This document shows, in pieces, positions 615 through 62,362 of a stretch of 64,000 nt of DNA. Made by a program: the position numbers and the translations under genes. The notes beneath the pieces are model-generated. The model was not told the DNA's origin. It ran no database searches and saw only the letters and a program-made list of their open reading frames with translations. Every line of letters begins with the position of its first letter. Position 1 is the first letter of the stretch. The DNA is from Blastomussa wellsi (taxonomy: Eukaryota > Cnidaria > Anthozoa > Scleractinia > Plerogyridae): the NCBI GenBank assembly GCA_947652115.1, contig OX393561.1, positions 4,910,031-4,974,030 of the forward strand, written 5' to 3'.

Positions 615-721
615 AAATTTCTGCTATGTATAAAATATTCATTGCTTTAGATCTTAACTTATCATAGGATATGAGAATTTTATCAGTCGTCTGAAAACTT
701 CCTCGAAGCCAACAGCGAATC
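615..721 (+). promoter_or_regulatory. Promoter and noncoding first exon of ligand gene A
   Basis: A TTTCTGCT-like box at about 618-625 is followed by a TATA box, TATAAAATA, at 629-637. The probable leader exon ends in CCAACAGCGAATC at 721, directly before a GTAAGTATA donor at 722. The same three-part arrangement recurs in front of B, C, D, E, F, G and, weaker, H. Transcription would start roughly 25-30 bases after the TATA box, which is inference. The leader intron would run to just upstream of the signal-peptide exon at 1554. Confidence 0.7.
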
Positions 722-1553
722 GTAAGTATAAGGTTTCTTATTTACCATTTCAAAGTACATTGAAATCGAAGTTGCGCTCTCGTTTTCCATTTCTTAATGG
801 AATCTGTTCGCATATACACTAGAGGGATTTGCAGGAAACAGAAATAAATCGCGAAGCCTTCGCTAAATGACTTTCTGGTATAAATTGACTGTGGCTTCAT
901 GCAGGTACTCGGAATGACGAGCTGTCGTGTTTTGAGCCTCAAATGCTTGCATTTGATAGTTTACTTTATGTCACTTTTTGCTAAAATCTAGCTTATTTCA
1001 TTCAATGAAAGAAAGAACCTTGTGCTTAGCTATCGATGCATCCTTTTTCTCAGTTTACGGCTCAGGATTTAGCCAACATGTATCATGTCCATGAGAGCAT
1101 GATACAGTCTCCACTGCAGTCGTGTACAGGCGATACTGTGTCATGTTTTTTATTACATTTTATACTTCGAGGAAAGGGCATTTTTGGCAATTCAGATTGA
1201 GCATATGGGCATGGTTTGAGCAACGATCTTCTTAGGCTTTCATCTAGTAAACATGTCTGGAAACTTTTCCTTTTGATTTCCGTGAGTCGATCAACGGTGG
1301 TGACCGCTGCAATGTTGTCTTGCAATGATGTTTCAGCTACACCATGTCCGCTACATACGATAAACGTGACGTTATAATGTTGCCGTGTTTTTTAGCAGCC
1401 ACTGCACCATCTTGGATTTTGTATTTTGTGAAAGGAGTACGCTTTCCTGGCTTTCTTCTCTGTTGCGAGATAAGATTAAAATTAAGATTTAGATCCACTC
1501 CTTATTAACACTGTTTTCTTCCCACTATCAGGGATTTTGACGTTGGAGTAACA

Positions 1554-2474
1554 ATGTTTATGCCCCTGTTATACACTTTGTACTTTGGAGCAACGATATG
1601 TATGGGAGTACCGGGGGATACTGGTGACGCCAAAGCCAGGATAGCTGAGTACTTGCGCGACTTATATTATAAGCGAGGCAACTCCTCTGAGTGGAAAGAT
1701 GTCAACGACATCGGCGAAATCGAAAATGAAGGTTTGCGAATCAGATCATGAAAATTACAGCATTTGAAGCGATTTTAGCGCGCATAAATTAACATGCAAA
1801 GGTTCGAAGCAGCGGCGGATCCAGCATTTTTCTTAGGAGGAGGTGACGCAGGGCATCTCAAAGGAAGGGGGTGGGCACCCTTGCACCGCACCGCCCCTCC
1901 TGGTTCCACCCCTACGAAGATAAGACTCCATTCGTGTGAAAGTATTTTCATTAGCTTCGCACCTTAGCATGTTAATTTCGCGGCAAGATGGCTTTACGTG
2001 CGGTAATTTGCATGGTCTGATACATTTTCTTATTGCAAACATAATTTGTTTTTGTTAAGAATAACAGCGACGTTTCTTAGATCTTCTCTTTGATTTCCCG
2101 TTTTCAGTTTGTATTTTTTCTTCTCTTCGACAGGAGACCTTACCGTGAGATCAAGAACGCCATTCTGCAGAAGGCAATCTATGTACATTAAATTTTCTGA
2201 CGGTTTTGGAGCTGACAACCGGTACATTGCCCCGAAAGGATTTGAAGCATATCGCTGCAGTGGAGAGTGTCCATATCCCATCCCAGCTCACATGAAACCC
2301 ACAATGCATGCCGTTATACAGAGGCTGATGAAGGAGGCTGAAAAAAAATGGCCAGCACCCTGCTGTGTGCCCATAACGTTAAAACCCATCAGCGTCTTGT
2401 ACTATGATAGGAAGAATAAAATCCAACTTGAAGAAATGGAAAATATGTATGTGGATAGCTGTGGATGTCGCTAA
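1554..2474 (+). CDS. Short secreted TGF-beta/BMP-type ligand, gene A
   Basis: Two coding exons, 1554-1731 and 2134-2474, are joined in phase 1 (donor GGTTTG at 1731/1732, acceptor TTCGACAG before 2134) and give 172 residues. Residues 1 to about 18 form a signal peptide. A hydrophilic pro-region of about 50 residues carries YLRDLY, resembling a motif in BMP prodomains. C71 to R172 is a complete cystine-knot domain with all seven cysteines, including the CC pair that contains the interchain cysteine and the terminal CGC. The domain follows the BMP pattern (FEAYRCSGEC, PCCVP, VDSCGCR) but lacks the usual tryptophans near its start. There is no clean R-X-X-R cleavage site; VRSR lies just before the first cysteine. 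The NxT glycosylation site of BMPs is replaced by KPT. The role as a secreted dimeric signalling ligand is inferred from the family. B is its broken duplicate. Confidence 0.88.
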
Positions 2475-2555
2475 GCATACTTCCATGATGTTAGATTAGC
2501 CTTTGGTGCGTCTAGAGCCGATGTGTATTTTGAATACAGTGGTCATTGTAACACT

Positions 2556-2561
2556 AATAAA
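2556..2561 (+). terminator. Poly(A) signal of gene A
   Basis: AATAAA lies 82 bases after the stop codon of A. The same signal in the same context follows pseudogene B at 19799-19804. Confidence 0.6.
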
Positions 2562-2690
2562 TTGTCTGGAATAAGCACACGTGATACTTGGCTTGTCTCT
2601 TTCCCTCTGGCACATTCTTACCTGGTCAAAAATATATCATTATTGTCATTTTATACCCTATCTTTGCAAATAAAAATGTTGCAAAGTGTT

Positions 2691-2966
2691 GCAAAGCGCC
2701 GCTTATCCCCAGCTTTTCCAGCTGTAAATGACAAAACAACGATTCAGCTTAATCTTGCGGAACATCGTCTGTTTTAACCAACTCGGCCTATTTAACAATA
2801 ATCCTGCGAAATCGCGCGGAATATCGCCTGATACTTACACGACGAGGCCGTAGGCCGAGTTGGCTAAAATCAGGAGATATACCGCAAGATTGGGCCTGAT
2901 AATTGTTCTATTATTCAACAAAGCACTTTCTACAGGTAGAAAAGTTGCCGTTATGCGGCGCTTTGC
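2691..2966. repeat. Fold-back (palindromic) element downstream of gene A
   Basis: GCAAAGCGCCGC at 2691-2702 is matched by its inverted complement GCGGCGCTTTGC at 2955-2966. Inside it, CCAACTCGGCC and GGCCGAGTTGG form a second inverted pair. This is typical of a nonautonomous DNA transposon or foldback repeat. A partial counterpart in the B flank (19936-20130) shows it predates the block duplication. Confidence 0.55.
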
Positions 2967-4134
2967 GAGACTAAAGCCGAATTATGGTTACTTAACGTAT
3001 GCCGCAGAATATCTATTAGCTGCAGTTCACGGATATTGAGAGCAAAATGACCATGTGTGGGCAATGCGACAATTCGTTGAATAATAACAGGCTATATTCT
3101 GCACGATTTCGCAGATAATTCAAGACATAGCAGTTACTCTGGGCCCTCTTTTACAGCTTCTGCTTTGACGAACTAAGGCTAACCACGAGTGATTTCTGGG
3201 AATTGTCTCAGAACTTTCTCAAAAGAAGCAGCCAAACCGTTTCCTTTAAATTTGTCTGGAGTATATTTACCATATCAGTTTGAAGATTTTACTCTTGCTT
3301 TGTCTTGTAAATGTTGCTAATTGTAGTAGTGATGCGAATCATATTGCTTTTCAAATGCGGAATTTACAATGTAAATCCCCAAAATACGGAATCTTTTTAA
3401 ACTAAAGAAGACGTTAATCCATGGCCGCCTTTGCTGGCCGAAACCGGCTGCGCGAAAACCGGCCAAAACCGGTCGACAAAAGAACGTGCTGCCCTTTCCC
3501 TCCCTCCCTGGAGACATTTTAGTTAGGGCCAATGAGCCAATCAGAATCTTTTTTCTGTCCATATTTTAAGTGAACTCTTGGGGTCCTACAAAGAAGGTTT
3601 TTTCTCCTTAATCCGCGCGTGGAACATGTACAAGAAAATCATGGCGCGTCTTGGCGAGTTGCAGCATTTGCTTACAAAATTCCAAGGCCTTGATTTTCAT
3701 TCTGAACACAGAAAATTCCCTCTTTGGGGCGAAATATGAAAAGTAGAAACACCGATCAATTAACTTTAAGTGTCTCTTAATGGAGTAAAGGGTGTTAAAA
3801 CCTTGCTAACGAAGGAAAACCAGGTGTTGTTGTTAAGGTTTAGCCTTGCACTGTTATCAATTCCACTTCTATTCTTGATTGATTCACTATGCAGGAAAAA
3901 AGCCCCTGTATAAAACAGTCATCAGTCATTTTTGATCAAAGCCACTATCCACAATAATTTATATTTTCATATATCAATTTACAGCGGAGAATGCATGTGG
4001 TCTCTGATATGCATGACAATACATTAGGACAGATCACAAATATGTAGGAGGAATGACGTCATCGTTTGTTCCGCCTGCCCATTGCAGTTATCAAAGCTTA
4101 AAAATGCGGACTGCCAATTTGGCTAAATTCCTGT

Positions 4135-4242
4135 CATCTCTGCTCTGTAATAAAATATTCATGGCTATTGTACTTGTCATGACTTATAATATAGGGAAAC
4201 TTCATCTTGCCTTGAGACAGCTACCTGGAAGCCCATAGGTAA
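4135..4242 (+). promoter_or_regulatory. Promoter and noncoding first exon of ligand gene C
   Basis: TCTGCTCTG is followed by TAATAAAATATTCAT at about 4149-4162, matching the TATA region of the other array members. The leader exon ends before overlapping donors GTAAGTAAGTAT; the second GTAAGTAT, at 4243, is the one conserved across the array. The leader intron would then span about 2.3 kb to the signal exon at 6541. Confidence 0.6.
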
Positions 4243-4504
4243 GTAAGTATCAATCTTGTCTGTGAGTTAATGTACAACTTTTAGTGGTTTACGTTTCGTT
4301 ATACATGTAGTTTATTGGAGTCATAGGGCCGGGGAAGCCTAACGTTATGTCTCCCTGTAATTTAACAAGCATATACCTTTTTATGAGTTCGAAATCGACG
4401 TCCACGGCCGCTAAAATTTACAAAGTCGATGATCAAGTTATCAATACTCGAATGATAAAAACTTTCGCGTGATACTTTTTAAAACACATATTGATTAAAT
4501 GTTC

Positions 4505-4845
4505 ATAAGGGTGAGAGCGCTTGCCTGCCACCAATGTGACCCGGGTTTGATCTCCGTCCGGACCCAGCGTTATATTTGGGTTGCGTTTGTTGTTGGTTCT
4601 CGTCCTTGCTCCGACTCCTCCGAGGTTTTTTCTCCGCAGGTCCATCACTTATCTTCACTGTTCCTCCCTCCAACACTTTTTAACTCCAATTAGATTGGGA
4701 ATATTAATTTCAGGGCCACAAGTTTATCAATCGCACGTGCTACCCTCCAACTCTTTAAACAAAGCCGATTTAATTGCTGTTTGATTGGATTTGGTTTGAT
4801 TTGAGCGTTACACTAAATAAAAAATAGGAATAAAGAACAAAAACA
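4505..4845 (+). repeat. tRNA-derived SINE in the leader intron of gene C
   Basis: A tRNA-like head has an A-box region (GAGAGCGCTTGCCTGCC) and a B-box region (CCGGGTTTGATC). It is followed by a T/G-rich body (GTTTGTTGTTGGTTCTCGT) and an A-rich end with AATAGGAATAAAGAAC. A second copy at the same relative place in the duplicated block is at 21936-22265, so the insertion predates the duplication. Confidence 0.6.
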
Positions 4846-4945
4846 GACAAAACAATCGGCTTAACCTCATGCGATCATCATCAGATAATGTTAAGTACTT
4901 AATACCTTAAGGACAGAGGGATTCTTTTTATAACCCTCAATTGAA

Positions 4946-6414
4946 AATGATCCCACTGTTGAACAAATACTCACCACTAAATTTTTATTAGGCTGAAAGC
5001 GACATGAATTTATTCAAACTCTAGTGCTCGGAGTCTTCGTTCCCGGCCAACGGTCGGGAATCGAGCGACGCTTGAAAGATCCGATTTAAAGTCCGACAAA
5101 ATCGGACTTCCGTTCGAACTGCACATTCCAAGCTTTCCAAACTCGATCATACCTCCAAAGCCCGCTTTCCTATTGTCCAGCACCAAAACGGGGTTTCTGG
5201 AAAGTCCCGATTCCGGAAGTACACTTTTAGCGAACTTCTGGGCATTCTTTGGGTACTCAATCAGATTAAATAATCAACAATCGGGGCAGAGCATAGTCCG
5301 CGCTCTTGGCGCTGAGCAAACGAAATGCGGGTTCTGAGGATAAGGATTGATTCCATGGTCTTCTTCTTATAACAATTTTTACTGTCTAAGAACCATCGTC
5401 ATCAAAATTGATCCTGTAAAGGAACTTTCGAGAGTCGCTCATTTTAAAAGCCTGTGTAACAAGAAACGAAGACTCGGGGTACGGGATTGATTTAATCACT
5501 GAAATTGTAGGCACTCCAGCGATGCTGTCAGCTTTCGAATTTGTATTGACTTGAGAGACATCCTCATTTGACTCAAATTTAATTTTGATGTGTATAAATA
5601 ACTTTTGAATCAATAAAAGCTTATCTTTGGTTCACAACGTTGAGGTACTTCGCGTTTATGTCTTTGTTTTCAGCCACAAGTCCCAATCACGTGCAATTGC
5701 AAGGTTCAGCCTTTGTCACCTTTGGAAGTAAGTCGGTTTTATTCGCCCAAGATTTTTTGTTTGGCGCGTGACATGTGATGTCTGCATTTCAGTTGTTTGT
5801 ATGACAATCAGTTATTGAGTGGAATACAGCGAGGTCAAGTGAGTTTTTTCTACCAACGCCAGGACGAACGTTCGCCGTAGTGTTTTGATGTTGGATTGAA
5901 CTAACTTACGTAATAATTATTAACAAAATATTCCCTGACTGGAAAGTTACTCCGAATGCAAAATTGGAGTTTCCCATTGATTGCACCAGTCAAGGTCGTA
6001 ACGAGGTATATTTTTTCACCACTGATCCCGTAATTGTACTCAATATTTTGATCCCTGATCCCAAAAGCGATGAAAATTTTGATCCCTTATCCCGAAAAAA
6101 TTTGTTGATCCGACAAGATTCCATCACAACACCGATGATCCCGTTCCCACGGGTTGTGATCCCAGATTGCGGGGCTATGATCCCTGATCCCACTCCTTTT
6201 GAATCTGTTGACCCTGACCAGTGCAGATGGAGATTATTTTAAGGACAGGGTATTTATTATCTTATTGGTGCAAACCAGGAGCTGCTTTGGATTGATAACT
6301 CAAAGTATTTTCCGAGTTCAGCGGCTCACCGCCCATAACTTTATACGGATTGCAGGTTTGCGCGCAGGATTTGGGTGTCTCCCTGTGCATTTTCTCATAT
6401 TTGTATGGAAGTAT
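4946..6414. other. Noncoding leader-intron stretch of gene C
   Basis: No coding region is supported here. Around 6020-6230 there is a degenerate tandem stretch built on GATCCC/GATCCCT units separated by A/T-rich spacers. Around 5040-5330 there is a moderately GC-rich stretch without an interpretable reading frame. Confidence 0.5.
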
Positions 6415-6540
6415 AGAGAATCGATAATTTCTGATCTTCTATGAAAATTTTTCTTTCTATTTGTTGCTGAAGCTGATTCAGTCATTTACAGAGTCTTCTT
6501 TTTTCGTTCATTTATTTACTGTATTTATGTCACATTAGGA

Positions 6541-9299
6541 ATGAAGATGTTTTTTGCTCTGCTGTGGTGTTTGTTCTTTGGAGCGGCGATATGTTTGGGA
6601 GTACCGGTTGATTCTCCTGACTCAGAAGCGGAGAGGATTTATAAAGAACTGGGACAAGTCATTCTCAAGGAGCTGGGCTTGAAAACTCCTCCAAAGGTGA
6701 CGAAAGAAGAGAGAGAAAGTGCCCTGCAGAATTTAATCGGCTCGCAGAAAGAAGTCAGTGAATCTGAGAGCAACGAAGAAGATTCCAACATGGAATTCCA
6801 AAATGAAGGTTTGTGTAGGAGATCGAGAGGATACCAGAGACACACGATGTTTTACAGACAATTTTGCTATGACGGATAAGTTTTGAGGTGGCAGTGGTAA
6901 TGTAATACTCGAGGCTTACATCGGTTGATGGTCGAAGCACGTTTCCCTTTCGTAAACAGGCCATGCCTTTTTAGCGAGACGTAAAATATTTTTTGGCTAT
7001 CATCGAAACTTGTACGTTAATAACCAGATTTGAACCCTGAACCTCTGACAGCCTACATTCTTATCTCACCACTACACTACCATGCTGATCCGCCAAATTC
7101 TCGCAGAATTAAATTATAAAAAAATTACTTTCTTAATCCATTTTACTTTACTTTGCCCCAGCCAACAAATAAAAGCTAACCGCAAGTAAACCAGTTAGAA
7201 AGTGAGCAGTTTAAAGGCAATTTGAGAGTGCTTATTAGTCTATCACCAAATTATAACAAGTTTCGACCTAGTCCAGGCCTAAACTAGAGCAGATATAGCA
7301 TCGCCCATTCCAAAAAGCTTGGTTACCAATTATGGCATCGACCGTTAAAAATGGCATCGCTTGTTTACGAAAGCGAAATCAGCGTCGGCGAAGGGTGAAA
7401 TCCCGAACCAACTGTCAAAGAAGACAGATGCCTAGAGTGACTAATCCAGCTGTTTTAGCATAACCCGATGGCTAACTTTAAAAATAGACTATCCAAAAAC
7501 CTGTGATTTATCAACGATAATGTTTAACGAATATGCTTGTCGGCATTGAGGCTGAGAAACAGGTCGCGGCTCAGGACAAGTTGTTGCAACAAATAACCTC
7601 GTAGGACAGCGACAAATATTTGCCGCGCAACTAAACGCAGTGACAAATGATCCCACCCCTCCCCCAGGTAATGGGGCTTGAAGCCGATAGGATTTGAAGT
7701 ATGTGCATGAGATATATGACATAATATATGACGTACGGGTAATTTTTGTTCATGTCCAAGAGGCAGCCATCTCGGATCACCATCTTAGAATTCTTGACTA
7801 ATAAAGCACATTGTTTCATGAATAAATTTAAGATATAAAGTGATAAATTTATCAGCTTTTGGTTAAAAATGTTGAAAGTCCGCCCAGGCACTTTCTATTT
7901 CCCACAACTCATTAATGCGTGCCAAGCGGAACGATAAAATAGCGCGCGTGATTAGCATAAATGGGGTAAGATTGGCCCATCACATTTCTTTTGCGAGCAC
8001 CCTAACCTAACTTTTTAATTGTATTTTTCGAAACAGTTCATGGCAGGGAACATCCAGGGAAAGTTTAAAAAACATTGTTGGATAACATTTATTTCTGTTT
8101 TCTGTTTGTAAGCAGTAATTCCATAAGACCGATAGTGAAGGCTGTGTTATTCTTTAGAAAAATCGGAATTGTTATTCTTTAGAAAAATCGGAATTGTGAT
8201 TCTTTAAAAAAATCGAAACTCTTCCTCTATTACTCCAAATTTAAGGATTTCAAATTTGAACACGCAGCCAGTTTGGGACTGCCAGTTGGGATTCGCACTC
8301 GCGTAATATTCATTGTTTCCAAAGAAGACATTCCATGGACCAATATTCACCATTTAACACTAGAAAAAGCTCTAAAATTGCTTGACTTTAAATGCAGTCT
8401 TGAGAAATCTCTAAGCAAGTGCTCTTAATCTGTAGCCGAGGAGACTTTCCTCTAAAACAGAAAGCATCGTCATTTACTATCGTATGTTACTAATAATTCT
8501 TCATCTTCGCCAAGGCAACCCTCTTTATGGTGATGTTCAAAATGACGCCTTTGATGAGATTTTGGTAAAGGCATGATATATATGAACTATGCAACAACCA
8601 ACTTCAAGCTTTTAAATTATCTTCCCAGTTTGGTGTAAAACTAGGTAGTGAATTCATCAGACATTTGGGAAGTAATTTGAACCTTACGCTAACACCTAGA
8701 AACAGGAATGTTCCCCAGGATATCAGTGCTTTGCTTGCTTCGACTTCCACGAAAACGGGGGCGGCACGCAGCTCTTTACAAGGTCCCACAGTATTGGCTG
8801 AAAAAATGATAAACAAACAACGGCAACAATGGATCCTAGCCCTAAAACAATAGAGCTGCATGCTATTAAGATGCAATGAAATTATATGTTCTAGAGAGCT
8901 ACGAACTTTCTCCGAAGACAAGTATTAACCCAGTTTTTCTTTACTTATTTAACAGGGGAATTGTCCACCAGGGCAGATAGTGACGAATGTCGACGAAGTG
9001 AAATGATTGTCGACTTTGAGAAACTTTATGGTAAAAATGGTTATATCATTGCCCCGAAAAGTTTTAAAGCATATCACTGCCATGGAAAATGTTATTATCC
9101 CTTAGACCAAATAGGAGTCAAACCAACGTCCCATGCCTACTTACAGAGTCTACAGCACCTGTTCGACTCCAAAGTGCCAGGTCCTTGTTGTGTGCCAACA
9201 AAACTGTCCAAACTTTCAGTCTTGTATTTGGATGACAAGAAGACTATTCATCTAAAGCACATGGAAAATATGGTTGCGACACATTGTGGATGCGCGTAA
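6541..9299 (+). CDS. Short secreted TGF-beta/BMP-type ligand, gene C
   Basis: Exons 6541-6808 and 8956-9299 are joined in phase 1 (donor GAAG/GTTTGT, acceptor TTTAACAG) for 203 residues. The first ATG is used; the next in-frame ATG at 6547 is the one that aligns with the other members. Residues 1-20 are the signal peptide. Residues 33-52 (ELGQVILKELGLKTPP region) resemble the first helix of a TGF-beta family prodomain, followed by an acidic, serine-rich linker. C101 to A203 is the seven-cysteine domain (AYHCHGKC, PCCVPTKLSKLSVLYLDD, THCGCA). No basic cleavage site precedes C101 (STRADSDEC), so processing is unclear. The NxT site is replaced by KPT. The 2.1-kb intron holds a reversed SINE and a short tandem repeat. 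D is its broken duplicate. Confidence 0.87.
7020..7480 (-). repeat. Dispersed SINE-like repeat in the intron of gene C
   Basis: Read on the minus strand, about 7020-7100 shows a tRNA-like head (GTAGTGTAGTGGTGAGA and GGTTCAGGGTTCAAATC). The sequence around 7320-7350 (TTACCAATTATGGCATCGAC) recurs inverted at about 62975-63015, so the segment belongs to a dispersed family. Confidence 0.45.
8155..8222 (+). repeat. Short tandem repeat, about 23 bases, three units
   Basis: ATTCTTTAGAAAAATCGGAA is repeated with small changes three times in a row in the intron of gene C. Confidence 0.7.
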
Positions 9300-9801: not shown

Positions 9802-9966
9802 TGTAGTATCTCACGGATTTAACCTTCGGATTTAACCAACGTACAAGAAACACTCTAAACAAACTCCATTGCAAGAGAGCACGTTTTACTAACACGTCAA
9901 CATCTCATGCGCATGCTCCAATATACATCTAATACGCATGCTCCGATATAAATGTAAAACACTACA
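9802..9966 (-). repeat. 3' LTR of gypsy-1
   Basis: This 165-bp terminal repeat is the same as 14277-14441 base for base by reading. It lies downstream of gag-pol on the minus strand. Confidence 0.95.
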
Positions 9967-14246: not shown

Positions 14247-14276
14247 ATCTAGTAACGACCTTCCTCGTCGCCAAAA

Positions 14277-17574: not shown

Positions 17575-17681
17575 AAATTTCTGCTATGTATAAAATATTC
17601 ATTGCTTTAGATCTTAACTTATCATTAGATATGAGAATTTTATCAGTCGTCTGAAAACTTCCTCGAAGTCAACAGCGAATC
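17575..17681 (+). promoter_or_regulatory. Promoter and noncoding first exon of pseudogene B
   Basis: The TTTCTGCT-like box, TATAAAATA (17589-17597) and the leader exon ending before GTAAGTATA at 17682 are nearly identical to gene A. The promoter looks intact although the coding sequence is broken, so a noncoding or truncated transcript is possible. Confidence 0.65.
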
Positions 17682-18492: not shown

Positions 18493-18823
18493 ATGTTTAT
18501 CGCCCTGTTGTAGACTTTGTTATTTGGAGCAACGATATGTATGGGAGTACCGGGGGACACTAGTGACGCGAAAGGCATGATAGCTGAGTACTTGCGCGAC
18601 TTATATCATAAGCGAGGCAACTCCTCTGAGTGGAAAGATGAAGAGATATCTGTCAACGACATCGGCGAAACAGAAAATGAAGGTTTGCGAATCTTGAAAT
18701 AAGAACGAAGACTAATTCGCTCCGACGAAGGGCTAACGCTCGAAACGTCAGCACTTGAATCTCTTTACGGTGGCCAATTGACATTATCAACCCAGTTGAT
18801 AAAACCAAATTATATTGTTATAC

Positions 18824-18868
<45 letters not shown>

Positions 18869-19701
18869 CTATCAATTTCACGTAGTTAACCAAAATACAA
18901 AATCAGAAAAATGAAAAAAATGCAACGATGCCTTAAATTAAATTTGTAATGGCTGAAATACATTCCTGGTTAAAGGGACTCTCCTTATACAGGGCGAAAC
19001 ATGGCAATCGAGCATGACGGGTGACACCTGATGGTGAAATAATTTCCCTTCATCTTGTCGCATGCTTTATACGTTTGTGTCACACTGAAGATGTCCGATC
19101 CCAGGAAACAGAAAGTCCGAAATGTTCTCTTAAGATAATGATTGAATTTCATATGGCTCACAATAAGTTATTTTCTGACATGAACACACGTTATGCTCCT
19201 CACGGAAAAGAAAGCTTTGCAATTAAGCTGGAAGAGGTAGAATATCCAGGCAATCGCCCTTATTGAAAACGTAATTCATTTTGTTAAGAATAACGGCTAG
19301 CTATATTTTGTGTCGTTCCCTTTGATTTCCAGTTTGCATTTTTTCTTCTTTACGACAGGAGACCTCACCGTGAGATCAGGAAGGTCCTTCTGCAGAAGGC
19401 AGTCTATGATTATTAAATTTTCTGACGTTCTTGGAGCTGACAACCCGTACATTGCCCCGAAAAAATTTGAAGCATATCGCTGTACTGGAGAGTGTCCATA
19501 TCCCATGCCAGCTCACATGAAACCAACAATGCATGCCGTTATACAGAGGTTGATGAAGGAGGCTGAGAAAAAAAATGGCCAGCACCCTGCTGTGTGCCCA
19601 TAGCATTGAAACCTCTCAGTGTCTTATACTATGATAAAGACAAGCAACTCAAAATTGACGACCTACCCAATATGTATGTGGATAGCTGTGGATGTCCCTA
19701 A
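18493..19701 (+). pseudogene. Broken duplicate of the gene A ligand (B)
   Basis: Exon counterparts are 18493-18682 and 19359-19701, with splice sites kept. There are two clear lesions. A TAG at codon 7 (18511-18513) lies inside the signal peptide. A net 2-base insertion at the A-run near 19567-19575 shifts frame just before the CC pair and stops at the next TAG. Downstream of the shift the third frame still resembles A up to CGC, but the last codon gives proline rather than arginine. The cystine-knot half upstream of the shift (SFCRRQSM, APKKFEAYRCTGEC) is well preserved, so inactivation is recent relative to the duplication. An in-frame ATG after the stop (18541) would lack most of the signal peptide. 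Confidence 0.85.
18708..18880 (+). mobile_element. Penelope-like terminal-repeat fragment with hammerhead-like motif
   Basis: The fragment contains CCGACGA at 18722-18728, a small hairpin with a TAAC loop, then CGAAACGTCAG at 18741-18751. This is followed by about 110 bases shared with 51569-51730, including GTTGATAAAACCAAATTAT and CCGACGCAGCACCACAG. It lies in the intron of pseudogene B and is absent from the A intron, so it inserted after the block duplication. The core matches a hammerhead ribozyme pattern except for C in place of the usual U in CUGANGA. Confidence 0.55.
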
Positions 19702-19798
19702 ACATACTTTCATAAAGAAGACATTTTTATGACGATAGATTAGCCTTTGGTGCGTCTAGAGCCGATGTGAATTTTGATACAGTGGCTATTTTGACACT

Positions 19799-20810: not shown

Positions 20811-20811
20811 C

Positions 20812-23937: not shown

Positions 23938-24198
23938 ATGTATTTTGCCCTGCTGTGGTGTTTGCTCTTTGGAGCGGCAATATGTTTGGGAGTACCGGAT
24001 GGTTCTCTTGACTCGGACGCGGAGAGGATTTAAAAAGAACTAGAAGAAGTCATTCTCAAGGAGCTGGGCTTGAAAACTCTCCAAAGGTGACGAAATAAGA
24101 GAGAGAAAGTGCACTGAAAAATTTAATCGGCTCGCAAAAAGAAGTCAGTGAATCTGAGAGCAACGAAGAAGATTCCAGCATGGAATTCCAAAATGAAG
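23938..24198 (+). pseudogene. Broken signal-peptide exon of a gene C duplicate (D)
   Basis: The exon aligns with the gene C signal exon from ATG to the GAAG/GTTTGT donor at 24198/24199. A TAA at 24031-24033 stops it after 31 codons. A 1-base deletion near 24078-24082 (ACTCCTCCA in C, ACTCTCCA here) and a further in-frame TAA-type change downstream confirm decay. No matching ligand exon is found before the viral module begins near 25 kb. The 3' half was therefore deleted or displaced. Signal peptide residues themselves remain well conserved. Confidence 0.85.
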
Positions 24199-42417: not shown

Positions 42418-42530
42418 AAATTTCTGCTAGGTATAAAATATTTATTGCTTAACAGTTTAGCATAACACAGATCATAGCAGTCTCATTATTCGTCGAACCA
42501 GTTCCTCGAAGTCAAGAGCTAGGAATCAGT
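42418..42530 (+). promoter_or_regulatory. Promoter and noncoding first exon of ligand gene E
   Basis: TTTCTGCT (42421-42428), TATAAAATA (42432-42440), then a leader exon ending in CTAGGAATCAGT before GTAAGTATT at 42531. The leader shares CCTCGAAGTCAAGAGC with the A and B leaders. Confidence 0.7.
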
Positions 42531-43536: not shown

Positions 43537-44506
43537 ATGTTTGCTGCTCTGCTGCTGTGCTCATTCTTTGCATCAACAATATGTATGGGAATACCAGATC
43601 CCTCTTATGGCACCGAGCATCAGGAGTCAAGTGAGGCAGAATCGAAAGGTAAAAGCATGCTAATAACGTCAATAAATCGAATTGTAATGAAGTGATATCC
43701 GAAAATAAAATCGAGTGGTTGAGTAAGGAAGGTTTCTTAATAGTTACGAATAGGCAAATATTGCAGAAAATTGCCAAATGGTACAAGCAGGTTCCTGGTT
43801 AGATACGAGGCTTTTCAACACGCTACACCAGATCAGAGGCTGAGCTAGGGGAGATCTAGGGGAGGTTTGTGCATCCCTCCTTCCCCCCCCCCCCTTCTCC
43901 CCTCATCCCCAGCCCGAGATGACCCGCGGCTTTCTAACATAATCATTATTCTTTAATTAAGAAAACAGAGAAAAAATTTGGGAATGTTTAAGTCACAGGT
44001 CAGTTACGCATTCCTTAGTGGTGCGCCCCCTCTTAAGAATAAACCTGGATCCTCCGCCCCTGCAAAAGGACTAGTCAGTTTACGATTTTTTTCATGAACG
44101 ATTTGAGCATTTAATTAGGTTCTACAAGCATGGCGCAACTGAATTTTCTGTGTTCTGTACAACAGGGAGCCTCTTCGTTAGGACACAGAGGAACTATTGC
44201 CAAAGGCTTGACATGCAGATAAACCCTAGTCAACTTTATGGGGAAGAAAATGTCTACATTGCTCCAACGAGCTTCAATGCATATCGCTGCAGTGGTGAGT
44301 GCCCGTTCCCCATCCCAGCCCACTTGAACCCAACGACACATGCCGTTCTACAAAGGATAATGAGCGGTATTAACAGTAAATGGCCTACTCCCTGTTGTGT
44401 GCCTACAAAGTTGAGAGCTGTTGATGTCTTGTACGTTGATGAAGAGAAAAGAGTACACAAGAAGACTGTGGAAAACATAATTGTGGAAGAGTGTGGATGC
44501 CGCTAA
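43537..44506 (+). CDS. Minimal TGF-beta/BMP-type ligand, gene E
   Basis: Exons 43537-43648 and 44166-44506 are joined in phase 1 (donor GAAAG/GTAAAAG, acceptor GTACAACAG) for only 150 residues. Residues 1 to about 19 are the signal peptide (MFAALLLCSFFASTICMG). Just under 30 residues of pro-region follow, acidic and serine-rich, ending in a furin-type site RTQR at 43-46. C49 to R150 is the full seven-cysteine domain (NAYRCSGECPFPIPAHL, PCCVPTKL, VEECGCR). NPT replaces the NxT sequon, so the usual glycosylation site is lost. The predicted cleaved product is 104 residues and essentially the whole precursor. This is the most reduced intact member, with no room for a latency domain. Function as a secreted dimer is inferred. 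Confidence 0.9.
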
Positions 44507-46002: not shown

Positions 46003-46196
46003 AATTTTCTGCTCAGCTATAAAAAATTCATGGTAAAACGCTTTAGTTATTACAACGTATGATCGCTTCATCAGTCGTTTGAAATTTAAAACCAAGTTGA
46101 TTGCAAGGCTGCCATAACGGCAAAAGGACAGAATTTATTCTTCGCCGTGTGGTCTCTTGTATCCAAACATTTCTTCTAAGCCAACAGCAAGGAATC
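46003..46196 (+). promoter_or_regulatory. Promoter and noncoding first exon of ligand gene F
   Basis: TTTTCTGCT, then TATAAAAAATTCAT at 46018, then a leader exon ending CCAACAGCAAGGAATC before GTAAGTATT at 46197. This leader is longer than in the other members (roughly 150 bases against about 70-100). Confidence 0.65.
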
Positions 46197-48157: not shown

Positions 48158-50769
48158 ATGTTTATCGCTCTGCTATGGTGTTTCTTCTTTGGGGTAACGA
48201 TATGTTCTGGAGTACCGACGGATTCTTCTGACGCCAGAAAACAGGAACTGTATAATGAGTTGGGAAAGGTCATCCTGCAAAAGTTGGGTTTGACAAGTCC
48301 ACCGAAGGTGACAAGAGAGGAAAAAGAAAGATTATCGGCGTCCGTGAGGCACTTATTTGGAAAACGCATCAAGCAATCAGGGAGCCAAGATGAGGATGAC
48401 TCTGAAGAGAGTTTTGTTCATGACGGTTTGTAAACGCTGATACAATCCACGCGAAAAGAATGTAGCAGAGAAATGATTCATCATGCCTTGTTGGGGGAGG
48501 GTGGGGGATTGCTATGCCGGGGAAAAAATAGGTTTTTGACGACTTTGTTATACCTCTCTCTGTACAGTTCTTCGTCATTATGCTAAGTCCTAGTGCAACA
48601 AATCAGGTTGCGGATTTTCTAATACCATCCACCGTGTTATGCTAATAAACATTAGCGATAAGTGTTTTTACTAGCGCGAAGTAAATAAATTTCACGTAGT
48701 TCAGAGATCTGCAGCAACAATACAACAATAATCTTTATTTGCACTCACTTGTCTGTGCTAAATTAAACTTGAACAATATTGAAAATGAAAATAGTGTACT
48801 GGAACAACCGTAAGGGCTAGCGGAGCCAAGCTGAGACATCAGCATTAAACGAAAATAAATTAAAGGACAGCAAGATAGCACAAAATACAAACATAAATTT
48901 AAAAAAAGGAAAAAAAGAGTAAAAATGCTAAAACACTAATATAAGGAAAGCACACAATAGTAAATATGACACGTTTTGACTCACAGTTTGCGCTGGTTCT
49001 GGTCAGCTTTCGGCCAAAAAGAGTCATTAGAGAACTATTTTAATTTGTGTTTAGTTTGTGCTCAATCTTTGTAAGGCGATAGACAAGTCGAATCCAAACA
49101 AAAGTATATCTTTTAATTGTCGATCTCAACGGTTTTTGGCGGGAAAAGGACGTCATCAAACTAACAGCCATATTTCCTTTCAATTTCTGACAAAAAATGG
49201 ATATGTTGAGACGAATTGAAGTGTGAAAAAAATTGCTGTTAAAAGATTTTTAACGAAAAAGATATTGCACTTTTAAATTTGACAGATTTCTGAAAATAGT
49301 AACGAAATGGGGAAAATTCAAAATTCAAACATTAATAGTTTGAACAAATTGGGATATTGAATTTTTTTCTTCAGTTGTTTTTAATTTCTCGCAAAATCGC
49401 CCACTTGTTTAGTCAGAAGTTGAAAATACAATTTGGCTTTGTGTTTAGAGACGACATTTTGCCGCAAAAATCCGAAAATAAAAAAAATAATGTGTTTGTT
49501 TGGATTTGAATACTTTATCATGTTGTTCAGGGCTCCAAACTGTTTCCTGTATTTTTCAGTATTAATTATGTTATTATTAAAACAGTTACCGTAATAACAC
49601 TATTACCTTATAAATACACAATTCATTTTAGCTTTAATTGCTAATAACTTAAAAACGAGCCCATGGACCTATTTTATTTTATTATTAAACTTTAATTAAC
49701 AGGATAAGAAGCAAATTTTGATTTTGCCAAAGTTAAAAATTCTGCACAAAGATTCAGAGACACCCTAAACTTTGTAAATTTAAAGTGGCTCTCAAAAATT
49801 AATAATAAAAAAATATAGGTCACCAGGCTCGTTTTTGAGTTATTAACAGTTTAAGCTAAAAGTAAGGGTGTATTTACAAACTTATACTGTTGCTATGATA
49901 ACTTGTTGTGTCCACAAAAAAAACATGACTTGTTCACATTTAATTGGGCATGTGTTTAATACCATAATTGTTGCGTCAAAGATTTGTAGAATTGATCCGT
50001 CAAACACAGCACGAAAATAGAGATTCATATAAACGTAAAGCTGGCTGAAATCTTCTTAAAGTTGGTTAACCAACTTTACGCTATGAATTAAATATTGATA
50101 AAGTTACTTAAAAAGTCCAATCTCTTTACTCAAACTATAATTATGGGTGTAAAGCTGGCATAAAGATCAGCTTTAAGAAAACGTAAAGGCATCGTAAAGC
50201 AACTTAAAACAGAGAATTATGCCAGCTTTAAGCTGGCTTTACACTACAGTAAAGTTACCTTTTCATACTGTGTAAGTTGAGGTGCTGGAAAATGTGAGAA
50301 ACAGCCTGGGGCCACTTAAGCTTGAGTTCCATCAGATTAAAAACACAAAGGTCGTCCCTAATTATCCTTTTTGATCGACAGCTGACCCGGCGTGGAATCC
50401 TACTAAAAGACTTGTTTCATTTTATTAACAGCTCCCGCAGTGAGGCCCAGGAGAAACTATTGTAAGAGGAAGGAAATGTATGTCGACTTCGACGAGATTT
50501 ATGGTGACAAAAATTGGATCATCTCTCCGTCAGGTTTCAGTGCATATCTCTGCAACGGGGATTGTCCAAGTATCCTTGGTTCATCCATGAACGCCACAAA
50601 TCACGCCGTGATACAGAGTCTTATTAGTTTGACTCAAAGTGCAGTCTCACGTCCCTGTTGTGTGCCTACAAAGCTGTCAAAAATTAGTGTCTTGTACATT
50701 GACGACGAAAAAGAAGTCCAGTTAAAGCACATGACAGAAATGGTTGTAGAAGCATGTGGATGCCACTAA
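48158..50769 (+). CDS. Short secreted TGF-beta/BMP-type ligand, gene F
   Basis: Exons 48158-48425 and 50432-50769 are joined in phase 1 (donor GACG/GTTTGT, acceptor TTATTAACAG) for 201 residues. The start is the ATG in the shared ATAAAGATGTTT context; an upstream in-frame ATG at 48104 would put 18 residues before the signal peptide and is less likely. Residues 1-18 are the signal peptide. Residues 31-49 (LYNELGKVILQKLGLTSPP) match gene C and resemble the first helix of TGF-beta family prodomains. An acidic linker (SGSQDEDDSEES) leads to the furin-type site RPRR at 94-97. C100 to H201 has seven cysteines and keeps W (KNWIISPSGF) and the sequon NATNHAV. It is the member closest to ordinary BMPs. 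The 2-kb intron holds a fold-back element. Confidence 0.9.
48700..49540. other. A/T-rich intron stretch of gene F
   Basis: Nothing beyond A/T-rich sequence is recognised in this part of the intron. Confidence 0.4.
49560..49925. repeat. Long fold-back element in the intron of gene F
   Basis: The left arm (about 49560-49700, with AATAACTTAAAAACGAGCC and GACCTATTTTATT) is mirrored on the right (about 49797-49920, with AATATAGGTCACC and GGCTCGTTTTTGAGTTATTA). About 95 unpaired bases lie between them. The arms are diverged but pair over more than 100 bases. It would form a strong hairpin in the intron RNA. Confidence 0.7.
50030..50275. repeat. Inverted-repeat stretch before the ligand exon of gene F
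   Basis: Repeated TAAAGCTGGC and its complement GCCAGCTTTA occur several times in both orientations, and GTTGGTTAACCAAC is a perfect palindrome near 50062. This suggests a small inverted-repeat transposon relic. Confidence 0.45.
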
Positions 50770-53977: not shown

Positions 53978-54094
53978 GAAACTTTCTGCTTGTTATAAAA
54001 TATTCATAGCTTAAAGTGCTAAGCTTCTAATGTCAGCGAAAAATTTCACCTGCCATCTAACGCTTTCTTCCGTCGAAGCCAACAGCTTGGAATA
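53978..54094 (+). promoter_or_regulatory. Promoter and noncoding first exon of ligand gene G
   Basis: TTTCTGCT (53983-53990), TATAAAATATTCAT at 53994, then a leader exon with CGTCGAAGCCAACAGCTTGG ending AATA before GTAAGTATT at 54095. Confidence 0.7.
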
Positions 54095-55478: not shown

Positions 55479-56328
55479 ATGTTTCTTGCTCTGACTTGGT
55501 GTTTGTTCTTTGGAGCAACGATATGTCTGGGAGAACCGGATAATTCTTCTGATACAAAACAGCTGGAGGAACTACAGTCCATGTGGAGAGGAGAGAACCC
55601 AGCACATAACAACATGGAGGAATTCGAGAGTGAAGGTTTGGGAATCGTGTCACAATACTCTGCAATTGCCTTGTTTCAGCGAGAGTGGCATATGTATTCA
55701 GCAAAGCCTGATTTGTCTTTTCATATCGGGCTTTCTTAACCTTCTGGGACTTGAAAAGGGAACGGGAGGGGGCACTTGTAGACCTTAAAACCACTGTGTA
55801 ACCTTAAAACCGCTTATACTCTGATTACTAATAAACACAGTATGGTCTACGCACTAATTCTTATAATGATAGTGTTATAATAGGTTGATTTAACAACAGG
55901 ACGGCAGCGTCAGTTGAGGACGGAGCGCGCATCAAATGGCCAATCAGAAGTCCAAGCAAAGTTGCGTCCAGACCATTATGCACGCGCTCCCATTGGGGCA
56001 CATGGTTACCGGTCTGGCCTTTCTGGACTGGGTGGGTGGGGTGGGACACCTCGCATAGGACCTCGAGTCCTGTTCGTGCTCTTTCCCTCTGGGCAGCTTT
56101 TCCCAGTAAAATGGTGTAAAACAAAACAAAACCAAAAACAACTGACGTTCCCGTCCTCTTGCTAAATCAATCTACAAGTAACGTAATATGACTTCACTTA
56201 TGACGCCGCTGATCTGATTTTATTGGCTAAAATAGTATTCAAAGTGCGCATGAGAAAAAGAAAAACAACTTAGTCTAAGAAGAATGGTGTTTTTCGTGTT
56301 GTAATATCTTCTTTTGCTCCAGAGATGA

Positions 56329-57028: not shown

Positions 57029-57828
57029 GTTATTATTATTATTATTCAAGTTTTTGCGTTACTGGGGACGTCATTCATTTTGTGTTTTACACAATGCAAA
57101 ACTTGTAAATCTCTGAGGCGAAATAAGATATAACAAAAAAGAAAATATCATTCGTCTTCATTCTTTAAGACTTTCAAATTAGGTTTAATTTATTGTTTAC
57201 TTCATATGCATTAATTTTACAAAATATTTCAAACGTGACATTTAATTTGTGCCTCATAAAGCTTTGGTTGTTATTATTAACAGCTATGCTATCATTATAA
57301 GTTACAAATCTTCAAAATTGGAGCGAGCCTCAAATCCCCGGCTCTGAAAAGGGTTAAAACATCATTGTTCTCGTGGCCTTTGAACTATTCACTACAAACC
57401 TTAGGGTGTTGCTGTTTTCTGCCTTTTTTAGCATAGCGGCCATGTTGGTTTTAATTAGAACAGTTATTTATTTCGTTCATCTTACAGCAGGGTACCTTTC
57501 CAAGAGGACAAAAGCCAACTTGTGTAAAAGGCATCCTTTACGTATTCCACTGTCAAAACTTTACGGGAAAGACATCATTACCCCTACCAGTTTTGAAGGC
57601 TTTCGATGCAGTGGCGAGTGTCCATTTCCCATCGCGAAACACTTGAACACCACGAACCACGCCGTTATACAGAAACACATGAGTGAGGTTTTCAGGGGTA
57701 AATGGCCATCGCCTTGCTGTGTGCCTACGAAGTTGAAACCCGTGGCCGTCTTATGGGTTGATAAAAACAACAAAGTCCATCATGAGAGGATACAAAATAT
57801 GATTGTAGAAGGCTGTGGATGCCGCTAA
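55479..57828 (+). CDS. Short secreted TGF-beta/BMP-type ligand, gene G
   Basis: Exons 55479-55635 and 57488-57828 are joined in phase 1 (donor GTGAAG/GTTTGG, acceptor CATCTTACAG) for 165 residues. The start is the ATG in the shared ATAAAGATGTTT context rather than upstream ATGs at 55437/55449. Residues 1-18 are the signal peptide. The pro-region of about 40 residues is acidic with no recognisable prodomain motif. SKRTK at 57-61 is a dibasic but not R-X-X-R site before C65. The domain C65-R165 has seven cysteines, FRCSGECPFPIAKHL, the sequon NTTNHAV, PCCVPTKL and EGCGCR. Sequence upstream of the acceptor stays open in the exon frame for 38 codons, but the splice pattern argues against its use. 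The intron contains two long TTA microsatellites. Confidence 0.9.
56329..56416. repeat. (TTA)n microsatellite
   Basis: A pure ATT/TTA run of about 85 bases in the intron of gene G. Confidence 0.97.
56931..57046. repeat. (TTA)n microsatellite, second tract
   Basis: About 115 bases of TTA repeats with two interruptions, in the same intron. Confidence 0.97.
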
Positions 57829-59465: not shown

Positions 59466-59586
59466 AGTTCTGCTAGCTATGAAAAATTGATTAATGGCTA
59501 AAGCGCTTAATTTATGATGACATTCAGTAAGTTTATCCTCTTCATCAGATGTCTAACGTCTTCCTAACAGTCAACAGCTAGGAATA
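59466..59586 (+). promoter_or_regulatory. Promoter and noncoding first exon of ligand gene H
   Basis: GTTCTGCTAGC, a weak TATA-like TATGAAAAA at 59478-59486, and a leader exon containing CTAACAGTCAACAGCTAGGA that ends before GTAAGTATA at 59587. The TATA box is the weakest of the complete promoters. Confidence 0.5.
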
Positions 59587-60190
59587 GTAAGTATAGATGA
59601 ATCGCTTTATCGTGTTTAATTTTTCGACCGTAGACCATTAAAGACTTTTTCTTCTCGTTATACTTAATGAGAATAGCGACGTACTACATTTTTTTTAACT
59701 CTTATCGGTTTATTCAAAATCTAAGTGGTTATTTTAACTTATTGGACTATTGTGTGCTACAATTGTTTTGATTGAGTATTAATACTAATATGTCAGAAAA
59801 GATTGATCGCACGAAAAGAGGAATTTCATATGACCCTGAGTGGAACTGTATAGTAAATTAGGATTCATGAATTACGGCTATTGCTCAATTGTTGATGCAT
59901 GCTGATGCATGCATTTTTTTAATTAACGTTTTTCCTTCAGTGCCGTTAGCCCGTTACATACTCGAACCGTGAACACTTGACATTTATTTTTACTTTTTTT
60001 CTACCATTATCCAATGTTAGCCATTCATATAAACAGAAGAATTAGCTTTTTTAGGTACTGAAAACACTCAAGAGCTAGATTTTTTTTGTCAAGATAATCA
60101 TAACAAAAAGATATAAAAATAAATGTCAAGTGTTCACGGTTTGAGTGTCCGCACTGTAAGAACAGGTCACAGTCTTTCGCATCTCATGTG

Positions 60191-60908
60191 TTAAGGTGGC
60201 TCGATCGGATTTTTGAGTGACGATACCTTTCAACTTTCAGCAGCTAGTGTACCGCCAAAGAGTATCTGACAGAAAATCGATTGCTCCAGGTGCACTAGAG
60301 AAAGATCAAAGTTTCAGATGAAGTTAATTTTATCGCGATCGGAGTTACCATAGCAACGTAGTGACGTTATGCCCCACTTTACTCGAGACCGAATAACCTG
60401 TCATCAAGGGATAATTTTGGAAAACCCTTCCTGGATCTTTAACCTGGCATACTTTTCTTGAGGTCTGCCAAATTTTAAAAATTGTTATGAGAGCGATTTC
60501 GAGAAAATTTATGGCGAAGTTTTAAGGTGTTAAAATACAACAAAATCGTATTACTTCCTGAATGTTATTAAAAAGTTTGTTCACTAGGCCTGATGTAAGA
60601 TGACTTTGGTCTGAAATAAATTGAATAGCATCCAATTACGTTTGGGGAAAATCTTAGAAAAATCGTTTTATTCGATTTCTGCTTGAACACTCGCTTGAAT
60701 ATGAACTGGAGTGGAGTATTATTTTGCATTTTCGTCAAAAATTGACCCTACATTTATTAAAATGGTCGCTATTTAAAAAGCGGTTGATAGTTTTTTTCAA
60801 AAATTATTCATCAGGTAGATTAACCAATATTTAATATAATCCCCGAGTTTCAACTTCATTGAAACATTCTAAGGCTGTAAATTTGTAGCCTCAACTTTGG
60901 TAAACATT
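60191..60908 (+). repeat. Long direct repeat, copy 1
   Basis: About 718 bases starting TTAAGGTGGCTCGATCGGAT and ending near CAACTTTGGTAAACATT; collinear with 61401-62113. No coding region. It lies in the leader intron of gene H. Confidence 0.85.
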
Positions 60909-61400
60909 CCGCTTATTTTCCGGCTAGTCGCTTGTGGTTCTAATTATACCTTTCCATTGTCTTGTATCTCCGAGCAACTGTACATTTCAATGCGTCGTGA
61001 ATTCATATATCGTTACATGAATTAATAAGGCACTTTAAATTTTGGGGTAATTATATTGTAAGTAGAGGTTTGTACGCAATGAGCAATTTATAATTATATC
61101 ATTTTTGCTCAAATGATGTAAGGATATTATTTATATCATTTTGTTTCAGAATAAAGGTTTTGCTTCAGCCTTGTTTGGATTGCTGTCATAACATATTTCT
61201 TTATGTAAATTGAATAATATCTGACATAAAGTATATCGTTATCGTGTACATCTTTCAGGCCACGTCGAGCCCTTCTAGTTGCTTTCTTCTTACGTCTAAA
61301 TTAGCATTTCTCTATCAATTTGGTAAATGAAAATCAACCAGAAAAGTTTTTTTTCAATCTCTATAAGATTTATATCAACGTTGTGAATGAAACGGTTGCC

Positions 61401-62113
61401 TTAAGGTGGCTCGATCGGATTGACGATACCTTTCAACTTTTAGCAGCTAGCGTACTGCCAAAGAGTATCTGACAGAAAATCGATTGCTCCAAGTGCACTG
61501 GAGAAAGATCAAAGTTTCAGATTAAAGAGGTTTCAGCGTAATCGGAGTTACCATAGCAACGTTGTGACGTCATGCTCCACTTTACTCCAGACCGAATAAC
61601 TTGTCATCAAGAGCAAATTTTGGAAAACCCTTCCTGGATCTTTGACCTCACATACTTTTCTTGAGGTCTGCCAAATTTTAAGAATTTTTATAAGAGCGAT
61701 TTCGAGAAAATTTATGGCGAAGTTTTAAGGTGTTAAAATACAACAAAATCGTATTAGTTCCTGGATGCTATTAAAATGTTTGTTCACCAGGCCTCATGTC
61801 GGATGACTTTGGTCTGAAATAAACTGAATAGCATCCAATTACATTTGGTGAAAATCTTAGCAAAATCGTTCCATTCGATTTCTGAAAACACTGACTTGAA
61901 TATCAACAAGAGTGAAGTGTTATTTTGCGTTTTCGTCAAAATTGACCCTATATTTATTAAAATAAAATGGTCACTATTTAAAAAGCGGTAGATAAATTTT
62001 TCTCAAAATTATTCTTCAGGTAGATTAACCAATATTTGATATAATCGCGGAGTTTAAACTTCATTGAAACATTCTAAGGCTGTCAATTTGTAGCCACAAC
62101 TTTGGTAAACATT
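61401..62113 (+). repeat. Long direct repeat, copy 2
   Basis: About 713 bases with the same start and end as 60191-60908 and scattered substitutions and small indels. Both begin with TTAA, but no terminal inverted repeat is apparent. The copies are 490 bases apart in the same orientation. Confidence 0.85.
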
Positions 62114-62310
62114 GTGCGAAATAACCTTAAGAAATGGGGTGGGGGAGGGGACGATGCCAGTGTAGTTGGTGTTCACGGTTTTCTCGTCATTGGGAATCAG
62201 CAGGCTTAGATGGAATTGAGACATGTTGTCAATCCTGTCTATCTTTGCTTCTAAGCCATTTAATTTAGTCATTGACTGATTGCTTTTCCTTATTTACACT
62301 TAGACTAAGG

Positions 62311-62362
62311 ATGTTTACAGCTCTGTTATGGTGTTTGTTCTCTGTTACAACTATATGCCTTG
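62311..62362 (+). CDS. Signal-peptide exon of ligand gene H (incomplete in window)
   Basis: ATG in the context CTAAGGATGTTTACAG opens an 18-residue signal peptide (MFTALLWCLFSVTTICLG). It ends in phase 1 at a perfect donor G/GTAAGT (62362/62363). The other members continue for a further 19-71 codons before their donor, so this exon encodes the signal peptide only. No ligand exon with seven cysteines follows before 64000. Either the gene continues beyond the window with extra exons or it has lost its ligand exon. Confidence 0.65.

Follow-up and report, generated by a model that had tools for sequence, protein, structure and literature searches.

BMP3 and other inhibitory ligands of the TGF-beta family are antagonists built on the BMP fold, and BMP3 has a conventional prodomain. 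In pro-TGF-beta1, the straitjacket of the prodomain is made up of the alpha1 helix, the latency lasso, and the alpha2 helix, and the growth factor domain is said to need its prodomain in order to fold and dimerize (PMC5798290). In Mnemiopsis leidyi, several reported ligands have no predicted propeptide, namely MlBmp3, MlTgf3, MlTgf4, and MlTgf1b, the last of which is a tandem duplicate adjoining MlTgf1a (PMC3169577). The present study examined a 64,000-nucleotide stretch of the Blastomussa wellsi genome, hereafter the window (assembly GCA_947652115.1, contig OX393561.1, positions 4,910,031-4,974,030; C1:4910031-4974030), in which an initial annotation had described a tandem array of at least eight very short TGF-beta/BMP-type ligand genes with almost no prodomain. 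We consider it likely that these genes represent a tandem family of BMPs in a stony coral that lack the arm, the main domain of the prodomain, and that they are derived from BMP2/4; they may act as modulators.

The array genes resemble BMP2/4 (decapentaplegic) in their signal peptide, in an alpha1-lasso-alpha2 segment apparently retained by several copies, in a phase-1 intron, and in a seven-cysteine ligand with its interchain cysteine, but they have no arm, have 10-13 residues instead of 171 between the intron and the first ligand cysteine, and have lost Trp28. BMP3, as an antagonist with a BMP fold, is a precedent for a modulator role, from which the array genes differ in lacking a conventional prodomain. 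With the Mnemiopsis genes they share the absence of a predicted propeptide and, in one case, tandem duplication; however, the Mnemiopsis propeptides were called missing or too divergent, and the available portion of that account describes neither a straitjacket remnant nor loss of the arm (PMC3169577). In the freshwater mussel Sinanodonta woodiana, ACJMK2_000481, ACJMK2_000483, and ACJMK2_000486 (P0120, P0107, and P0117) are TGF-beta precursors of 205-229 residues whose close locus tags suggest that the genes adjoin one another, and neither P0107 nor P0120, the two that were scanned, matched Pfam family PF00688. Because RKRR precedes the ligand in all three, Trp28 is kept in P0107, and the three fall in a separate clade of the ligand tree (support 100/98), the mussel precursors are probably an independent case. 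Another TGF-beta precursor, P0099 (168 residues), has a short pro-region and keeps Trp28. No earlier description of armless BMP2/4 arrays was recognized in the open-licence literature searched, which is not proof that there is none.

Organization of the short ligand genes

Translated searches and inspection of splice sites identified eight TGF-beta-type units in the window, all on the plus strand and in the order A, C, B, D, E, F, G, H, and the array claimed in the initial annotation is present, with five intact members (A, C, E, F, and G), two broken members (B and D), and one incomplete member (H) that straddles the end of the window. The intact precursors are 172 (A), 203 (C), 150 (E), 201 (F), and 164 (G) residues long and are encoded by two coding exons, of which exon 2 carries the signal peptide and a short pro-region and exon 3 the seven-cysteine ligand. 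A phase-1 GT-AG intron separates the two in all six spliced window models (the five intact genes and B), and likewise in H. A non-coding first exon with a GTAAGTA donor was found in six of the eight units (A, B, E, F, G, and H) and was not located within the window for C and D; a conserved block and this donor are common to the six, and TATAAAA lies 93-101 bases 5' of the donor in A, B, E, and G. The three-exon structure proposed for these genes thereby held wherever it could be checked.

In window coordinates, the segment of gene A from the TATA box to the exon 1 donor, recognized by the conserved block and GTAAGTA, spans 629..721, exon 2 (signal peptide and a pro-region with only an alpha2-like helix motif, by translated search, splice model, and an N-terminal hidden Markov model, HMM) spans 1554..1731, and exon 3 (ligand; PF00019 E 9.6e-29) spans 2134..2474. 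Gene C has its signal peptide and alpha1/lasso-like fragment at 6541..6808 (PF00688 E 0.014, below the family cut-off) and its ligand exon at 8956..9299 (PF00019 E 2.2e-27). The corresponding TATA-to-donor segment of gene E lies at 42432..42530, with exon 2 (signal peptide and approximately 19 residues, by splice model) at 43537..43648 and the ligand, with RTQR before its first cysteine, at 44166..44506 (PF00019 E 2.2e-24). Gene F comprises the end of non-coding exon 1 with its GTAAGTA donor (46178..46196), a signal peptide and alpha1/lasso fragment (48158..48425; PF00688 E 0.046, below cut-off), and a ligand exon with an RPRR site (50432..50769; PF00019 E 3.4e-31). In gene G, the TATA-to-donor segment spans 53994..54094, again with the conserved block and GTAAGTA, exon 2 (signal peptide and a short linker, by splice model) spans 55479..55635, and the ligand exon spans 57491..57828 (PF00019 E 2.2e-24). 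The end of exon 1 of gene H, with its GTAAGTA donor, lies at 59568..59586, and exon 2, which encodes a signal peptide only, at 62311..62362.

The two broken members lie between C and E. Gene B has a TATA-to-donor segment of the same kind (17589..17681; conserved block, GTAAGTA) followed at 18493..19698 by a gene body, identified by translated search and splice model, that is interrupted by an in-frame TAG at codon 7, within the signal peptide, and by a frameshift in its ligand exon. Gene D consists of a signal/pro exon at 23938..24198, found by translated search, with in-frame stops and a frameshift (three stops fall inside its genome-search match), and its ligand exon was not found. Window positions 109-4937 resemble 17062-22444, and 6395-6907 resemble 23763-24289, in the same order, which suggests that the A and C pair was duplicated as a block to yield B and D, with both genes of the B and D pair broken.

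The array does not end at position 62362, where the initial annotation had placed its limit. The ligand exon of H begins 12 bases beyond the window, and a splice model across the window end gives a precursor of 129 residues in which the signal peptide is joined directly to the ligand. Downstream of H are four further units, I1-I4, each of 191 residues, bringing array 1 to 12 units over approximately 121 kb (from the ATG of A to the last ligand exon), ten of them intact in the models. I1, I2, and I3 encode identical proteins at a spacing of approximately 14-15 kb (C1:4985221-5018078), an identity that may reflect very recent duplication or an effect of assembly.

A profile search of the genome (367.8 Mb, 124 contigs) yielded 34 PF00019 matches, among them a second array of seven short ligands at C1:10458090-10495239, 5.4 Mb from array 1, with a different type of signal peptide. 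Array 2 was delimited from ligand exons and likely ATGs, the latter 201-713 bp from the first cysteine; one member has an in-frame stop, six ligand exons have none, and one ligand lies in an open frame able to encode a 169-residue precursor from a single exon. There are thus approximately 16 apparently intact short genes in the genome, a count that mixes ten spliced models (array 1) with six open ligand exons (array 2).

Two protein searches recovered precursors annotated in a similar short form in Oculina patagonica, itself a scleractinian coral: P0001 (173 residues; ACROYT_G015755), P0002 (205 residues), P0023 (129 residues), P0018 (275 residues; G015758), in which the signal-exon sequence is doubled, and P0020 (197 residues), which is named isoform X2. 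P0001, P0018, P0002, and P0023 are each listed against a contig of 64,437,903 bases, and P0020 against one of 38,349,888 bases. No other named cnidarian was among the matches listed in the two protein searches.

Absence of the arm and probable descent from BMP2/4

We searched for a hidden arm with an HMM built from 64 trimmed prodomains, one of which was the short P0018. Among 2091 open reading frames (ORFs) of the window, the best match (E 0.19) was 5' of the first exon of gene E and outside the array genes, and the intron of gene C gave a match at chance level (E 2.8); among 2412 ORFs of the 70 kb downstream, there was none at E 10 or better; and among 1583 ORFs around array 2, the best (E 0.1) was on the minus strand. 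In a control run, this HMM recovered 65 of 65 conventional proteins cut into exon-sized pieces and 200 of 205 pieces of 60 residues, these controls being BMP2/4 kin of the training set. A hidden arm exon was rejected on the window and downstream searches, within the limits set by the kinship of the controls and the presence of P0018 in the training set. Intron length is 1.6-2.7 kb in C, F, G, H, and the I copies; A and E have introns of 402 and 517 bp, respectively, which could hardly accommodate an arm, if at all.

What appears to survive of the prodomain, in some copies, is its N-terminal straitjacket part. The copies form a series in which the I copies, C, and F keep a straitjacket remnant, a trace of the second helix is left in A, and nothing recognizable remains in E, G, and H. 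The initial description of the genes as having almost no prodomain is therefore apt for the arm, which was not found in the window, and needs amending for C, F, and the I copies, which keep an N-terminal fragment, and for A with its trace. An N-terminal HMM made from 64 BMP2/4-type proteins, with scores compared to those of shuffled sequences, gave 20-34 bits for P0002, P0017, P0018, and P0020 (shuffled maxima of at most 2.3), 8.0 for C (5.9), 8.9 for F (5.2), and 4.7 for A (0.8); E and G did not beat their shuffles, and P0001 was matched or beaten by 2 of 100. PF00688 matched above its cut-off in Oculina P0002, over profile positions 15-74 of 242 only, and in P0017, over positions 20-71, and below it in P0018 and P0020. 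The two best PDB sequence matches of P0017 were pro-BMP9 chains (E 0.055 and 0.12, neither of which is significant by itself), and I1 aligned along the alpha1-lasso-alpha2 segment with the BMP2/4 exon of its own genome (E 9e-15).

Processing may also vary. R-X-X-R precedes the ligand in eight of 15 junctions scanned (E, F, the broken B, P0001, P0002, P0023, P0025, and P0027), P0018 has KGKR there, and no such site occurs at the junctions of A, C, G, P0003, P0019, or P0020; H, which was not among the 15, has KKR. Among the intact window genes, E and F have the site ahead of the first cysteine whereas A, C, and G lack it, so that cleavage may not be the same in every copy and some products may keep their pro-peptide.

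A BMP2/4 gene of conventional form is present on contig C8; over 268 residues, its last exon shares 50% identity with Xenopus BMP2. The N-terminal BMP2/4 HMM recognizes the signal exon of this gene (3.8e-19), which carries the sequence LFFGATICLGVP, the same as or similar to that of the array genes, and extends through alpha1-lasso-alpha2 to a phase-1 donor; the last exon begins G-D-H-L and continues for 171 residues to the first ligand cysteine. The ligand exons of array 1, which reach that cysteine after 10-13 residues, begin G-D-L (A, B, and the I copies), G-E-L (C and H), G-S-L (E), G-Y-L (G), and A-P-A (F). For 11 of 11 pro-exon products, this BMP2/4 exon was the best of 65 BMP N-termini, with E values from 9e-3 (H) to 3e-27 (P0020), the cnidarian entries among the 65 being those of this genome only. 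A genome search with P0017 gave 11 matches to E 1, ten of them in array 1 and the remaining one the BMP2/4 exon on C8 (E 8.8e-12). Other parents were rejected on this search, which did not recover A and H, and on tblastn of three pro-exons into the 11 arm-bearing loci, in which BMP2/4 matched at E 1.4e-13 or lower and three others at E 0.003 or higher; this comparison covered approximately 1.5 kb upstream of each ligand and left out first exons lying farther away.

In the ligand tree, the BMP2/4 gene on C8 grouped with P0024 and P0074, which are BMP2/4-like though not so named in the database (98/94). A single clade of the coral set was not rejected by the approximately unbiased test (p-AU 0.405 with 20 rows, P0020 left out, and 0.567 with 13 rows), a result that does not show such a clade, and proof of one origin was not obtained from trees of 92-118 columns. 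Taken together, an armless architecture with an origin from BMP2/4 is very likely. The initial annotation had proposed a distinct class of ligand, and although the cluster of short genes is real, its members are better described as derivatives of BMP2/4, several of which carry a straitjacket fragment.

Receptor face and competing explanations

All five intact window ligands matched PF00019 (E 2.2e-24 to 3.4e-31), which rules out chance resemblance, and seven cysteines are present in each of the ten window and Oculina ligands listed. The interchain cysteine (Cys78; numbering follows BMP2) is kept in 21 of 21 aligned members, 11 of which were picked by resemblance. An AlphaFold2 model of Oculina P0002 had a BMP fold, with predicted local distance difference test (pLDDT) values of 93-97 in the ligand blocks, and its first Foldseek match was BMP-2 (1es7_A; template modeling score 0.95 by target length); the ligand exon of gene F was also modeled confidently (mean pLDDT 87.9).

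The wrist of the ligand departs from this conservation of fold. A GDF5 pocket formed by Trp414, Trp417, Tyr490, and other residues takes up helices of BMPR1, RGMs, TWSG1, and prodomains (PMC11167000), and by our reading of the alignment these three residues correspond to BMP2 Trp28, Trp31, and Tyr103. Trp28 is kept in none of the 21 members vs. 84 of 105 other matches from the two protein searches, Trp31 in five vs. 89, and Tyr103 in one vs. 94; for the window and Oculina ligands alone the counts are 0, 3, and 1 of ten, with gene F among those that keep Trp31. Another search first listed 108 proteins, 107 of which have both tryptophans, the last having a gap. Within the genome, Trp28 is kept at none of the 19 loci without an arm, and Trp28 and Trp31 are both present at nine of 11 loci with one. 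The 19 comprise ten of array 1, seven of array 2, and L027 and L028, which were counted without inspection of their upstream exons; the 30 loci are the 34 PF00019 rows less two of gene B and two at C20 and C5:8319017, and L026 is cut by its stop. On the type II side, where ActRIIB engages the IAP motif of BMP6 (PMC12415261), IAP is found in six and I-x-P in all ten of the window and Oculina ligands. Loss of Trp28 would favor altered use of type I receptors over simple constitutive BMP activity.

The ratio of nonsynonymous to synonymous substitution rates (dN/dS; Nei-Gojobori) among the ligands of the five intact window genes was 0.20-0.48, which suggests constraint, albeit as a rough measure given that dS was 0.8-1.5 and near saturation; for exon 2, the C-F pair gave 0.28.

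In the history that we propose, an ancestral BMP2/4 copy would have lost approximately 160 arm codons from inside its last exon while retaining the signal-peptide/straitjacket exon, the phase-1 intron, and the ligand, after which tandem duplication would have spread the armless copy and some copies would have lost the straitjacket as well; the direction and mechanism of arm loss are read back from present-day sequences. Without the arm, the products would still pass into the secretory pathway, fold, and dimerize through disulfide links, and their secretion would be free of arm-based latency. With Trp28 lost and the core of the type II motif kept, their engagement of type I receptors, prodomain helices, and wrist-binding regulators would be unusual, and BMP/activin signaling could be modulated by competition for type II receptors or through a changed type I receptor. 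We favor modulators of BMP/activin signaling, with agonists that have a re-tuned type I face almost as probable; antagonist-like competition for type II receptors in particular is plausible, at somewhat under even odds. A stronger version, in which prodomain-free BMPs, able to fold with no arm and, for gene H, with no pro-region at all, arose at least twice (arrays 1 and 2), arm loss was coupled to Trp28 loss because the arm and straitjacket normally shield that hydrophobic groove, and the products tune BMP signaling as type II competitors or partners, is tentative.

Several observations weigh against a family of armless, BMP2/4-derived modulators. The genes and products are predictions from DNA alone, and inactivating changes are present in three of the 19 units of both arrays (B, D, and an array 2 member). 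Apart from the C-F pair, exon 2 shows little sign of constraint (dN/dS approximately 0.33-0.92 in the other 14 pairs), and the ligands of the recent copies I1 and I4 show none (proportions of nonsynonymous and synonymous differences 0.054 vs. 0.061). The straitjacket fragment is weak in the window itself, where PF00688 stays below cut-off in C and F and their 8.0 and 8.9 bits stand against shuffled maxima of 5.9 and 5.2, and the genome search with P0017 was of limited sensitivity, having failed to recover A and H. The ligand trees give the array family no placement within BMP2/4, and parentage consequently rests on the first coding exon. As for the wrist, the four I copies and three of six readable array 2 members retain Tyr103, a shifted aromatic (LYG for GW) may stand in for Trp28, and Trp28 is missing from L029 and L030 even though these loci have an arm, which means that it can be lost without arm loss.

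Among the alternatives, the one that fares best holds that the short ligands are agonists with a re-tuned type I interface that were duplicated for lineage-specific signaling, with arm loss simply removing latency. The retained ligand fold and type II motif core and the low ligand dN/dS agree with it, as does the chance that the LYG aromatic replaces the wrist tryptophan, whereas the absence of Trp28 from every armless locus and the loss of Tyr103 in six of the ten array 1 loci do not; it is a possibility of which we are far from persuaded. Next, folding and secretion of the short ligands could depend on heterodimerization with a conventional BMP precursor, which would supply the arm in trans. 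The interchain cysteine of all 21 aligned members, the 11 arm-bearing loci in the same genome, and the described need for a prodomain in folding and dimerization (PMC5798290) speak for such pairing, and the loss at all 19 armless loci of the wrist-groove tryptophan, where prodomain helices bind, and the lack of any pro-region in gene H speak indirectly against it, leaving it unlikely.

Decaying duplicates, whose frames would be open by chance or through gene conversion, would fit the broken state of B and D, the stop in one array 2 member, and the unconstrained I1 and I4. Yet in 2000 simulated copies the ligand frame stayed open in 30% at 10% substitution, 4.4% at 30%, and 2.3% at 40%, while all five intact ligands of the window have open frames and seven cysteines, the splice sites and first-exon donors have been retained, and similar precursors are annotated in Oculina; with only three of 19 units broken, a pure pseudogene array was rejected as a whole, and decay is a very improbable account of the family. 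Least credible of all, gene models from DNA alone with several introns of 1.6-2.7 kb could conceal a conventional arm spliced from unseen exons, which is hard to reconcile with the absence of a significant arm match in window or downstream ORFs when 65 of 65 controls were found, with the short introns of A and E, with 201-713 bp from ATG to first cysteine and a best arm match of E 0.1 in array 2, and with the short Oculina products of like form.

Neighboring elements and significance

The array genes are interspersed with other elements. On the minus strand between C and B, 9802-14441 holds a Ty3/Gypsy-type element with an open Gag-Pol frame of 1374 residues and end repeats of 165 bp that are 100% identical, and because of this identity it is probably a very recent insertion. 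A second Gypsy-like element, recognized by translation, occupies 35444-39819 and has 97-bp direct repeats (98.97% identical) and a frame change near 37335-37383. An open frame with a GIY-YIG domain (22617-23543; E 1.1e-5), adjoining 200 N, is possibly the remnant of a Penelope-like element. Between D and E, an ORF cluster at 25000-34000 is probably an integrated virus-like element; its frame at 31091-31603 matched the poxvirus A32 packaging ATPase family above cut-off (E 7.8e-6), and the other six ORFs scanned from the cluster matched no Pfam family above cut-off.

With approximately 16 short genes that lack the main domain of the prodomain beside a likely parent gene, the genome of B. wellsi would offer a natural test of what the prodomain does, and the graded series from the I copies, C, and F through A to E, G, and H would make its purpose directly testable. 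The array genes may also help explain why the wrist aromatics are retained elsewhere. Hexacoral genomes have been described as carrying orthologues of BMP2/4, BMP5-8, GDF5, and ADMP (PMC11226491), and Nematostella as having four BMP ligands (PMC11846459); given these descriptions, an expansion of this kind would change the set of ligands to be considered for axis formation and skeleton building in corals.

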